Assembly: GCA_902570545.1 (NCBI GenBank)
Contig: CACFYO010000007.1
Location: 1-37,116, forward strand
DNA length: 37,116 bases
DNA from: an uncultured Pelagibacteraceae bacterium
GTDB taxonomy: Bacteria; Pseudomonadota; Alphaproteobacteria; Pelagibacterales; Pelagibacteraceae
Direction of reading: 5' to 3'
Shown: positions 10,524 through 13,378 of the stretch, in pieces
Layout: each line of letters begins with the position of its first letter
Numbering within the stretch: position 1 is the first letter of the stretch
Made by a program: the position numbers and the translations under genes
Notes under the pieces: model-generated
Seen by the model: the letters and a program-made list of their open reading frames with translations, nothing else
Databases searched by the model: none
Told to the model about the DNA's origin: nothing

Positions 10524-11654
10524 ATGAAAAAAATTGCGATTATTGGTGGAGGGATATCAGGCTTATATTTTGCAAATCTTTTAAATAATGAAAAAGATTT
10601 TGAATATAAGATATTTGAAAAAAAAGATAATTATAATTTCCTTGAAGGTTATGGAATTCAATTATCAGTAAATAGTATAAAATTATTAAATAGCATAGGA
10701 TTTAAAAATCTACCTGCATCTGAAGTTAGCTTTCCGTCAAATGTGAATTTCATACAAGCAAATAATTCCAAAAAAATTTGCGATATAGACCTTACACAAT
10801 TTAATGATTCATTAAATCGATACACTACCTTAAAAAGATCAACATTATTAAAATTCTTATTTCAAAACATCCCACAAGAAAAAATAAAATTTAATTCAAA
10901 TATAACAAAAGTAGATAATTCTAATGGCATCAGAATTTCTTTTGAAGATAATAAAAATGAAGAATTCGATTACTTAATTATTTCGGACGGTATTTTTTCA
11001 AAAACGAGGTCACTAATTTTTAATGAAAGCATATATCCAAAATATAATCTTAATGTTGCACTGCGAGGTAAATTAAATGGCGATTATGGTAGTGATATTT
11101 CAATATATATGGGATCAAATAGTCACTATGTGATCTACCCAGTAAATCAAAATAATGAGTACAATTTTGTAGCTATTATAAAAAAAAAATTATCCTCAGA
11201 TGAATTGCAAAATCATGATTTATTCAAATCTGAAGAATTTTTAGCATCGTTAGTATCGGGTTTACAAAAAACATCGCAAATAAGCTCAAAAAATTTAAGT
11301 GAATTGAAATCATTTCCTGTTCACGTTAGCAGCGAATTTCCAAGTCTAAATAAAAAAAATATATTTTTGTCAGGCGATGCTTTATTTACATTCCCTCCAT
11401 CATTTGCTCAAGGAGCTTCCCAAAGTATTGAAACTGCAAACGATATATTTAAAAGTATTTTGAGTGGTACAAATGAATTCTATCAAGAAAGAATTCGTAG
11501 TATTTCTTCTATAAATAATAAATCAAAATTAAACCATTTTACATTTCACTTATCAAATCCCATCAATATTTTTATTAGAAATAAAATTTTGAAATATCTT
11601 TCAAAAAATAAAAAATTTCTTGAAAATTATTTGGGTAAAATTTACAGAGCTTAA
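10524..11654 (+). CDS. FAD-dependent aromatic-type monooxygenase
   Basis: Flavin monooxygenase of the PHBH/UbiH-like fold, predicted to hydroxylate a substrate that cannot be named from sequence. The dinucleotide-binding motif IIGGGISGLYFANLL is at about residues 6-20. The DG motif appears in DYLIISDGIFSKTRS, and the FAD/ribityl-binding GD motif in FLSGDALFTFPPSFAQGASQSI. The length of 376 residues is normal. It follows mutY by 4 bases and is probably co-transcribed with it. A ubiquinone-ring hydroxylase is one candidate, and a salicylate-hydroxylase or zeaxanthin-epoxidase-like enzyme another. Its stop overlaps the convergent ccrM stop in a shared TTAA. Confidence 0.85.
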   Translation: MKKIAIIGGGISGLYFANLLNNEKDFEYKIFEKKDNYNFLEGYGIQLSVNSIKLLNSIGFKNLPASEVSFPSNVNFIQANNSKKICDIDLTQFNDSLNRYTTLKRSTLLKFLFQNIPQEKIKFNSNITKVDNSNGIRISFEDNKNEEFDYLIISDGIFSKTRSLIFNESIYPKYNLNVALRGKLNGDYGSDISIYMGSNSHYVIYPVNQNNEYNFVAIIKKKLSSDELQNHDLFKSEEFLASLVSGLQKTSQISSKNLSELKSFPVHVSSEFPSLNKKNIFLSGDALFTFPPSFAQGASQSIETANDIFKSILSGTNEFYQERIRSISSINNKSKLNHFTFHLSNPINIFIRNKILKYLSKNKKFLENYLGKIYRA

Positions 11655-12724
11655 TTTGCAGGCCTTAATCTTTGTCTCAAATCATCAATTGGCTTTAAAG
11701 AATTTCCAGATTTATAATGCCAAAATGTCCACCCGTTACAACTTTCTGCACCAATAATTTTTGCTGCAACTTTATGGATTGAACCCTCTGATTGTTGATA
11801 TTTGATACTTCCATCCACCATAATTTTAGCATTTACTTTTTTCTTTTGATCATAAATTTCTGTTCCGGGTTTAATAAAGCCCATTTCAACTAATGATCCA
11901 AAAGGAATTCTTGGTTTTGATCTATTATTTTGAAGTGTATCTAGATATTCATCTTTTATAATATCTGTATTGTTTAATCTTTTTCTTGTAGCATTAAAAT
12001 AATTTTTTTCCTTTTCAATTCCAAAATATTTTCTACCTAATTTTTTAGAAACAACAGCCGTGGTACCTGATCCCAAAAATGGATCTAAAATAAAATCATT
12101 TTTATTTGATGAGGCTAATATTATTCTATGGAGTAACGCTTCTGGTTTTTGAGTAGAATGGACCTTTTTTCCATTGTTTTTTAATCTTTCTTTGCCATTA
12201 CAGATTGGAATGTTCCATGTAGATCTCATTTGAAGGTCATCATTCAAGCATTTTAATGACTGATAATTGAAAGTGTATTTCGACCCTTCACTTTTTGATG
12301 CCCAAATAAGTGTTTCATGTGCGTTAGTAAACCTTGTTCCCCTAAAATTTGGCATTGGATTATTTTTATTCCAAATTACATCGTTTAGTATCCAAAAACC
12401 TAAATTTTGGATTGTAGCACCCACTCTAAAAATATTGTGATAACTACCTATTACCCAAATCGATCCATTCTTTTTTAAAATTCTTTTACATTCCTTTAAC
12501 CAATCAAAAGTAAATTCATCATAACTTTTAAAACTTTCAAATTGATCCCATTTATCGTCTACAGCATCTACTTTAGATGTATCCGGTCTACTTAATTCTT
12601 TTTTTAATTGAAGGTTGTAAGGGGGATCAGCAAAAATAAGATCAAAAGTTTCATCAGGAATTTTTTTTAATTCCTCTAAACTATCTCCATTAATAATTTT
12701 GTTTTTTAAAGTTTGATTACTCAT
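11651..12724 (-). CDS. ccrM: Cell-cycle DNA adenine methyltransferase CcrM (GANTC)
   Basis: Solitary N6-adenine methyltransferase of the alphaproteobacterial CcrM family, which methylates GANTC and links transcription to replication. The catalytic motif DPPYN is at 33-37, and the AdoMet-binding motif LDPFLGSGTTAVVSKKLGRK follows later in a beta-class order. The C-terminal region, with GWTFWHYKSG close to the end, resembles the RAMA-type domain present in CcrM but missing in simple restriction-modification methylases. No restriction endonuclease is adjacent. The length of 357 residues matches CcrM. Its upstream region carries four GANTC sites, suggesting autoregulation by methylation. Confidence 0.95.
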   Translation of the reverse strand: MSNQTLKNKIINGDSLEELKKIPDETFDLIFADPPYNLQLKKELSRPDTSKVDAVDDKWDQFESFKSYDEFTFDWLKECKRILKKNGSIWVIGSYHNIFRVGATIQNLGFWILNDVIWNKNNPMPNFRGTRFTNAHETLIWASKSEGSKYTFNYQSLKCLNDDLQMRSTWNIPICNGKERLKNNGKKVHSTQKPEALLHRIILASSNKNDFILDPFLGSGTTAVVSKKLGRKYFGIEKEKNYFNATRKRLNNTDIIKDEYLDTLQNNRSKPRIPFGSLVEMGFIKPGTEIYDQKKKVNAKIMVDGSIKYQQSEGSIHKVAAKIIGAESCNGWTFWHYKSGNSLKPIDDLRQRLRPAN

Positions 12725-12740
12725 TTTTTAATTATTAATT

Positions 12741-12820
12741 AGACTCCAGAGTAGAGTCTCCGTCAACCTGAGATTGAATTATTTTGAGTCTACTTGTTGC
12801 TATTTTTTTCTGTGACTCAA
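12741..12820 (-). promoter_or_regulatory. GANTC cluster upstream of ccrM
   Basis: Four GANTC sites lie within 77 bases at 12742-12746, 12754-12758, 12786-12790 and 12814-12818. The first two form an inverted repeat AGACTC-N7-GAGTCT (12741-12759). The last two form TTGAGTC-N23-GACTCAA (12784-12820). Part of the second repeat lies in the 3' end of rnhB. In Caulobacter the ccrM promoter also contains GANTC sites whose methylation affects expression, so methylation-sensitive control of ccrM is a reasonable inference. Exact promoter elements were not assigned. Confidence 0.6.
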
Positions 12821-13378
12821 TATGTTGTGTATTGGATTGAATGTTTTTCGATGAAATCTAGTTACTCCATATTTTCTAATAGCATTAATGTGATCTCTTG
12901 TTCCATAACCAGCATTTAAATCCCATTTATATTTTTTAAAACTTTCTGACATTTTGAGCATCAGTTTATCCCTTGAAACTTTTGCAATTATTGATGCTGC
13001 TGATATTTCTTTAATTTTTTCGTCTCCTTTAATTATTGTTTTAATAAGATAATTACTTAATTCTGGTGATTTATTCCCGTCAATAAGTACTAAATTAGGT
13101 TTAACTTTTAGTTTTTTTATAGCTCTTTTCATGGCTAATAGACTAGCACTTAAAATATTTAGTTTTTCTATTTCCTTAACCGAGGCAGATCCTATTGCCC
13201 AATTAGAATTTTTTTTTATAAATTTTGCTAATTTTTCTCTCTCAATCTTAGTTAACTTCTTTGAATCTTTGATCTCTTTCTTTCTAATATTTTTTTTAAG
13301 AATAACAGCTGCAGCATAGACTGGACCAATTAAACTTCCTCTACCAACTTCATCAACTCCAGCTATAATTTTTCTCAT
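12800..13378 (-). CDS. rnhB: Ribonuclease HII
   Basis: Removes RNA, including single misincorporated ribonucleotides, from RNA-DNA hybrids. The N-terminal active-site signature GVDEVGRGSLIGPVYAAAVIL includes Asp9 and Glu10. A further acidic residue follows in VLIDGNKSPE, and the family motif ISAASIIAKVSRDKLM is intact. The length of 192 residues is typical. Its start codon overlaps by one base the stop of a 44-codon gene (TAATG), so the two are probably translated together. Its 3' end contains one of the GANTC sites that appear to belong to the ccrM control region. Confidence 0.96.
   Translation of the reverse strand: MRKIIAGVDEVGRGSLIGPVYAAAVILKKNIRKKEIKDSKKLTKIEREKLAKFIKKNSNWAIGSASVKEIEKLNILSASLLAMKRAIKKLKVKPNLVLIDGNKSPELSNYLIKTIIKGDEKIKEISAASIIAKVSRDKLMLKMSESFKKYKWDLNAGYGTRDHINAIRKYGVTRFHRKTFNPIHNILSHRKK

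Follow-up and report, generated by a model that had tools for sequence, protein, structure and literature searches.

A probable methylation-marked sigma70 promoter ahead of ccrM in SAR11 bacteria, at a locus listed as the bablM RNA

What do the GANTC sites standing just upstream of the GANTC methylase gene in SAR11 bacteria do? The question was raised by a 37,116-base stretch of DNA from an uncultured Pelagibacteraceae bacterium (contig CACFYO010000007.1), which is called the window below. From its letters alone, it had been proposed that four GANTC sites, arranged in two inverted repeats, could switch ccrM expression through their methylation (the sequence-only reading). All four sites were present, at 12742-12746, 12754-12758, 12786-12790 and 12814-12818. 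Both repeats, AGACTC-N7-GAGTCT and TTGAGTC-N23-GACTCAA, were found in the window, and a CcrM-type methylase gene was located beside them at 11651-12724 on the minus strand, with the sites on its upstream side. Only three of the four sites were intergenic, and that at 12814-12818 fell in the last codons of rnhB. The best NCBIfam match of the ccrM product was DnaMtaseCcrMCaul, with 577.7 bits over residues 7-352 of 357, which did not reach the model's own cut-off of 830; the Pfam domains N6_N4_Mtase and RAMA were also matched. The features are listed below, with offsets counted on the minus strand from the first T of TTGAC (12766 = 0) and the ccrM ATG at 42.

11651-12724, minus strand: ccrM, identified by profile matches and read as the target of the promoter
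12721-12790, minus strand: match to Rfam RF01784 (bablM), interpreted here as promoter DNA; score 51.3 bits (cut-off 38)
12725-12731, minus strand: predicted transcript start (near 12731) with a very short leader before the ATG, placed by the position of the -10 element
12738-12743, minus strand: proposed -10 element TCTAAT, offsets 23-28; 17-base spacer, conserved bases
12742-12746, unstranded: GANTC site 2, offset 20; shares two bases with the start of the -10 box
12754-12758, unstranded: GANTC site 1, offset 8, within the spacer
12762-12766, minus strand: -35 element TTGAC; 66 of 67 sequences have it with a GANTC at offset 20
12772-12778, minus strand: TTCAATC upstream of the -35 element, corresponding to the left arm of stem 1 in bablM; column conservation between 0.98 and 1.00 across 56 unique sequences
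12786-12790, unstranded: GANTC site 3, offset -24; present in 43 of 61 unique sequences
12800-13378, minus strand: rnhB, upstream of ccrM
12814-12818, unstranded: GANTC site 4, in the final codons of rnhB; TTG AGT C retained by 30 of the 55 rnhB tails that could be read

The crowding of the sites was evaluated against chance. The expected rate of one GANTC per 360 bases that had been quoted for this DNA agreed with the dinucleotide expectation, but the actual count was lower: the 37116 bases held 60 sites against 102 expected from dinucleotide shuffles, so GANTC is depleted in the window. A four-site cluster this tight occurred in 1.3% of trials with 60 randomly placed sites and in 9.3% with 102. 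The cluster described earlier as strong is thus real, but taken alone it is only moderately improbable (P 0.013 to 0.09). The complete related chromosome G013 (1.34 Mb, of which 5000 bases were masked) had a single place, inside a coding frame, where an 80-base span contained four GANTC starts. GANTC was also depleted in G013 overall (1642 observed against 3711 expected), with a density of 1.84 per kb between frames and 1.20 within them according to a simple frame caller. The cluster by itself is suggestive and not conclusive. Since it lies only modestly beyond chance, conservation across relatives becomes the deciding evidence.

Among near relatives the GANTC sites were kept. The arrangement TTGAC-N15-GANTC was retained in all sequences but one (L055) of a set of 67, which comprised the window, 46 sequences of an 80-locus set and 20 same-genus genomes. 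The locus and genome sets overlap in part, and counts of unique sequences were therefore used where made. In 50 unique sequences, site 1 started at offset 8 in 25 and at offset 9 in 21 and was absent in 4, while the distance from TTGAC to site 2 stayed constant. The bases left free by selecting for TTGAC-N15-GANTC were also nearly invariant in 56 unique longer sequences (G22 1.00, T25 1.00, A26 1.00, A27 0.98, T28 1.00). The two inverted repeats did not hold up as a functional unit, because several relatives retained GANTC without the dyad. GAATC stood opposite GAGTC in some of them, and functional dyads were rejected on this ground. The third site was GAGTC rather than GACTC in L028, L029, L032 and L033. 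The combination of TTGAC and a GANTC pair occurred in 0 of 7 genomes from other genera of the window's own SAR11 family. In two of these seven, G118 and G171 (loci L147 and L148), which belong to one SAR11 genus, TTGAC and TCTATT were retained before ccrM and both promoter GANTC sites were gone. If the promoter reading is right, these two genomes represent a natural loss of methylation control. As judged from these sequences, a methylation-marked ccrM promoter is not universal, even in SAR11.

The site inside rnhB could be examined against its coding frame. Among 61 unique rnhB tails, 6 were unreadable and 55 were scored. In the 30 tails with TTG AGT C, the next residue varied (Leu 17, Pro 7, His 6), yet its codon started with C in 30 of 30. 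The leucine codons at this place were CTN in 17 of 17, although CTN is the minority usage (0.30 in G013). The C-starting codons, kept despite the change of residue, and the CTN bias point to selection on the DNA at site 4 within rnhB, with the caution that related sequences were compared.

The conserved positions before ccrM have the form of a sigma70-type promoter. TTGAC and TCTAAT, both conserved, were separated by a normal spacer of 17 bases, with one GANTC between them and a second overlapping the -10 box. The predicted start is near offset 35, about 7 bases ahead of the ccrM ATG. A consensus promoter scan of 12640-12900 returned no promoter. The scan demands A at position 2 of the -10 element, and it missed the putative promoter because the -11 base of the proposed box is C, which is unusual for a -10 element. 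Of the four sites, only site 3 fitted the extended GcrA motif YGAKTCK, and promoter sites 1 and 2 did not. No CtrA box (TTAA-N6/7-TTAA) was present near 12725-12820, the closest matches being at 10801 and 14661. In near relatives, TTCAATC and the following GGTTGA (12761-12778) formed a near-invariant imperfect dyad that overlapped the -35 element; it was exact in 41 of 50 unique sequences, with AGTTGA in 8 and ACAATC in 1. From its conservation, this dyad is a possible site for some regulator.

The same geometry was then followed across the Alphaproteobacteria. From 100 upstream regions, one was too short and was dropped, which left 40 from Pelagibacterales and 59 from other Alphaproteobacteria. 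TTGAC plus a GANTC pair was found in 30 of the 40 and in 21 of the 59 (38 lacked it), whereas the frequencies in simulated sequence of the same dinucleotide make-up were 0.0005 and 0.0003, respectively. All 20 same-genus genomes had site 2 at offset 20. In all 13 genomes from another SAR11 family it was one base closer, at offset 19, and this was also its position in 28 of the 59 other Alphaproteobacteria, the remaining 31 having none at offset 19. As a control, seven other palindromic pentamers reached at most 7 of these 59 at any offset from 5 to 40, against 28 for GANTC. The offset-19 class was drawn from 113 upstream regions (34 loci and 79 genome regions), and 56 of them contained TTGAC-N14-GANTC. 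The base after the site was A in 56 of 56, and T stood at offset 28 in 52 of 56. After removal of identical 32-base stretches, A followed the site in 47 of 47 and T was found at -7 in 43 of them. Two bases are most important in a sigma70 -10 box, A at -11 and T at -7, so the last C of GANTC would sit at -12. The proposed TCTAAT of the window coincides in position with the CANNNT box seen in the offset-19 class.

The pattern was also specific at the level of whole genomes. TTGAC-N3-GANTC-N6/7-GANTC gave 17 matches in 16 of 26 genomes, and the reversed pattern gave 0. Nine of the 17 were just ahead of a ccrM profile match, one was ahead of a ccrM found by tblastn, six were on bablM matches, and one was coding. 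With the looser spacings N3-5 and N4-7, the whole G013 chromosome contained a single match, at ccrM. A second TTGAC-plus-pair match in G017 was rejected as a promoter, as it sits within a coding frame. In the passages, titles and abstracts searched, no description of the fixed -35/GANTC/GANTC/-10 geometry was found. The ccrM promoters of L066, L073, L085, L087 and L088, which are presumably from Sphingomonadales, carried a DnaA-box-like TGTGGATAA 4 bases past the second GANTC site; in L085, TGTGGATAA comes after the one remaining site.

It may still be asked whether the GANTC sites are incidental, or are kept for replication or methylation bookkeeping while the promoter is regulated otherwise. 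G118 and G171, which keep the promoter without the methylation sites, would suit such an explanation, as would the modest cluster statistics of the single window. However, GANTC is depleted in G013 and yet fixed at this place in near relatives and beyond, and we consider incidental sites very improbable.

A different explanation is given by Rfam, in which this stretch is a structured RNA, and the bablM RNA could then act on ccrM post-transcriptionally as a leader or a small RNA. The family goes back to 2009, when Pelagibacter was searched for structured RNAs (PMC2704228); in that work bablM was placed between rnhB and a DNA methylase and ranked among the less well-supported motifs, a grading that counts against the RNA. 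Neither GANTC nor ccrM occurs in the main text of that paper. By score the window is a member of the family, being above the cut-off of the covariance model. The second hairpin of the window folded well, with a z of -3.25, and the whole match had a z of -2.16. The proportion of paired cells was 94.9 percent in subgroup A and 89.2 percent in subgroup B, far above slid versions, and in subgroup B the pairing and the covariation score were equalled by only 2 of 500 shuffles. Moreover, one pair was altered on both sides in 4 of the 15 sequences of subgroup B.

Such pairing, however, arises anyway from two palindromic GANTC sites. Any two of them pair at four of five positions, and hence only the middle base tests the hairpin. 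The middle bases, the sole free ones within the sites, were unpaired in 27 of 46 unique sequences of near relatives, and the Rfam consensus itself leaves the middle base unpaired in both arms. In the other Alphaproteobacteria and the other SAR11 family, they paired in 17 of 43 sequences, which does not exceed the shuffled level (mean 14.5, p 0.19). The structure scored had 13 pairs, among them the middle one and a sixth in stem 1; none of these pairs changed on both sides in subgroup A (21 sequences), and 1 of 13 did so in subgroup B (15 sequences). Compensatory change thus gave the bablM pairs no general support, and the single covarying pair of subgroup B favours RNA. The hairpin energies were uneven, with a mean of -8.0 kcal/mol in 19 sequences and -3.8 kcal/mol in 14 sequences of subgroup B. 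Furthermore, the match spans both the -35 and the -10 elements, so a transcript from the proposed promoter would contain almost none of the matched stretch. Of the 50 genomes taken at order level, the covariance model matched 19, every one from a single genus, whereas the promoter geometry reaches well past that genus. An RNA hairpin was rejected as the main reading because of the near-nil covariation (apart from that one pair), the unpaired middles and the uneven energies. A functional bablM RNA is accordingly held to be improbable, and on sequence grounds the Rfam listing of the stretch as a folded RNA is probably a mistake. The conserved bases and the stretch are the same as those of RF01784, but they are here taken as double-stranded promoter DNA.

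The most fitting description of the stretch is probably that of a methylation-marked sigma70 promoter for ccrM, likely served by GcrA, and not that of an RNA or a functional pair of inverted repeats. GcrA is described as a sigma2-binding activator of m6A promoters (PMC7403470). In a family search it was found in 21 of 26 SAR11 relatives, and the same search in 14 control genomes gave 2 matches, one in Caulobacter (expected) and one in Sulfolobus (unexpected). The relatives therefore encode GcrA; its DNA-binding and sigma-binding domains were aligned for one SAR11 protein (L095), which matched those of the Caulobacter structures 7ye1, 5yiu and 5yix. From these relatives we infer that GcrA is also encoded by the window's own organism. 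The 200 bases upstream of gcrA itself contained GANTC in only 2 of 10 loci. In cultured Pelagibacter NP1, most GANTC is reported as fully methylated, with lower levels near the origin during growth (PMC9516812). As the sites are conserved, lie in a likely promoter and belong to a motif known to be methylated in Pelagibacter, methylation control of ccrM, which had been proposed at the outset, is plausible. That early interpretation was sound in its conserved sites, two of which lie in the apparent ccrM promoter; it went astray over the inverted repeats and overlooked the -35 and -10 elements, bablM and the GcrA of the relatives.

We consider it fairly likely, from sequence comparison, that the stretch is a ccrM promoter containing CcrM's own targets, the methylation state of which is read by GcrA together with sigma70. 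Promoter activity, GcrA binding and activation rather than repression by methylation are what we infer within this mechanism. The sigma70 RNA polymerase would recognise TTGAC and TCTAAT across the 17-base spacer, and CcrM would methylate both promoter sites, the GANTC in the spacer and that overlapping the -10 box. GcrA, the sigma70 partner that reads methylated GANTC, would be recruited to the ccrM promoter and would help the weak -10 box, with C in place of A at -11, to open. The output of CcrM would thus depend on and track the methylation of its own promoter, and it would shift once the replication fork leaves the sites half-methylated. Several results weigh against this mechanism: the empty consensus scan and the C at -11, the misfit of both promoter sites to YGAKTCK, the absence of the arrangement from many other Alphaproteobacteria and from other genera of the same SAR11 family, the Sulfolobus match in the GcrA search, and the small number of Pelagibacter genes assigned to GcrA.

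The comparison with Caulobacter is favourable in part. As in SAR11, the GcrA-dependent methylated sigma70 promoters of Caulobacter have GANTC within the -35/-10 region, and the system operates with both GcrA and CcrM, which the SAR11 relatives encode. Unlike those promoters, the SAR11 ccrM promoter has two sites whose positions are fixed, and the second touches or overlaps the -10 box; neither fits YGAKTCK. A Brevundimonas study reported no preference of the YGAKTCK type, apart from a weak tendency towards C ahead of the site (PMC7987155). The ccrM promoter of Caulobacter is alike in its gene and in having GANTC near the promoter, but it is CtrA-activated (PMC2877005), whereas the SAR11 promoter has no nearby TTAA-N6/7-TTAA, and Pelagibacter, unlike Caulobacter, is reported to lack CtrA (PMC2877005, PMC7987155). 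On the basis of 13 Alphaproteobacteria, ccrM was suggested as a core GcrA target, with GcrA control of ccrM reported as lost in the Caulobacterales and very few conserved Pelagibacter genes assigned a high probability of GcrA control (PMC7987155).

The direction of the control may also be the reverse. Full methylation could shut ccrM off directly or via another protein, without GcrA, as has been proposed for Caulobacter ccrM. With site 2 overlapping the -10 box, m6A there could directly interfere with sigma. Caulobacter ccrM is stated to be most probably methylation-regulated (PMC3973325), methylation shuts down CcrM in a published model (PMC2217572), and CcrM represses gcrA in Agrobacterium (PMC11514494). 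On the other hand, the relatives encode GcrA, for which activation of methylated promoters is described (PMC7403470), and Caulobacter starts with GANTC between -10 and -35 become active between 40 and 60 minutes into the cycle (PMC4287350). Repression is therefore regarded as unlikely, though less so than a bablM RNA, and activation through GcrA is tentatively preferred.

A second Rfam family from the same 2009 paper, SAR11_0636 (RF01827), was present in 25 of 50 genomes with 27 matches, an example being L230:104-194, which corresponds to about 220104-220194 of G013. All 27 loci contained three GANTC sites, spaced by 12 bases (26 loci) or 11 bases (1 locus) and then by 11 bases. The GANTC centres were again unpaired in the Rfam hairpin, and a DnaA-box-like TGTGGATA or TGTGGAAA was within 75 bases in 26 of 27 loci. 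RF01827 is, judging from these features, probably a DNA element beside a umuD-like gene. A role as the replication origin was rejected because G013 reaches its GC-skew minimum at about 1.29 Mb, whereas the element is at 0.22 Mb.

A wider proposal can be made tentatively, with slightly more doubt than belief. An ancestral alphaproteobacterial ccrM promoter with locked GANTC positions would turn CcrM into a self-reading switch, one that persists in SAR11 in the absence of CtrA, and bablM and SAR11_0636 would be methylation-site DNA mistaken for RNAs because adjacent palindromic GANTC sites mimic hairpins. SAR11 are among the most abundant marine bacteria. If the proposal is true, a self-methylated ccrM promoter would be a simple link from replication to expression for Pelagibacter, reportedly without CtrA; a public RNA family would need correcting, and close pairs of palindromic methylation sites would have to be viewed with caution, as they can pass for RNA hairpins.

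Two other loci in G013 carried groups of GANTC sites. Three were upstream of mraZ, but they were not generally kept in correctly oriented upstream regions, and mraZ-ftsZ was rejected as a second conserved target. Three more were within 89 bases at 487166-487255 (L243), between frames that presumably encode clpP-like and clpX-like proteins, the names being assigned by eye from the translation.
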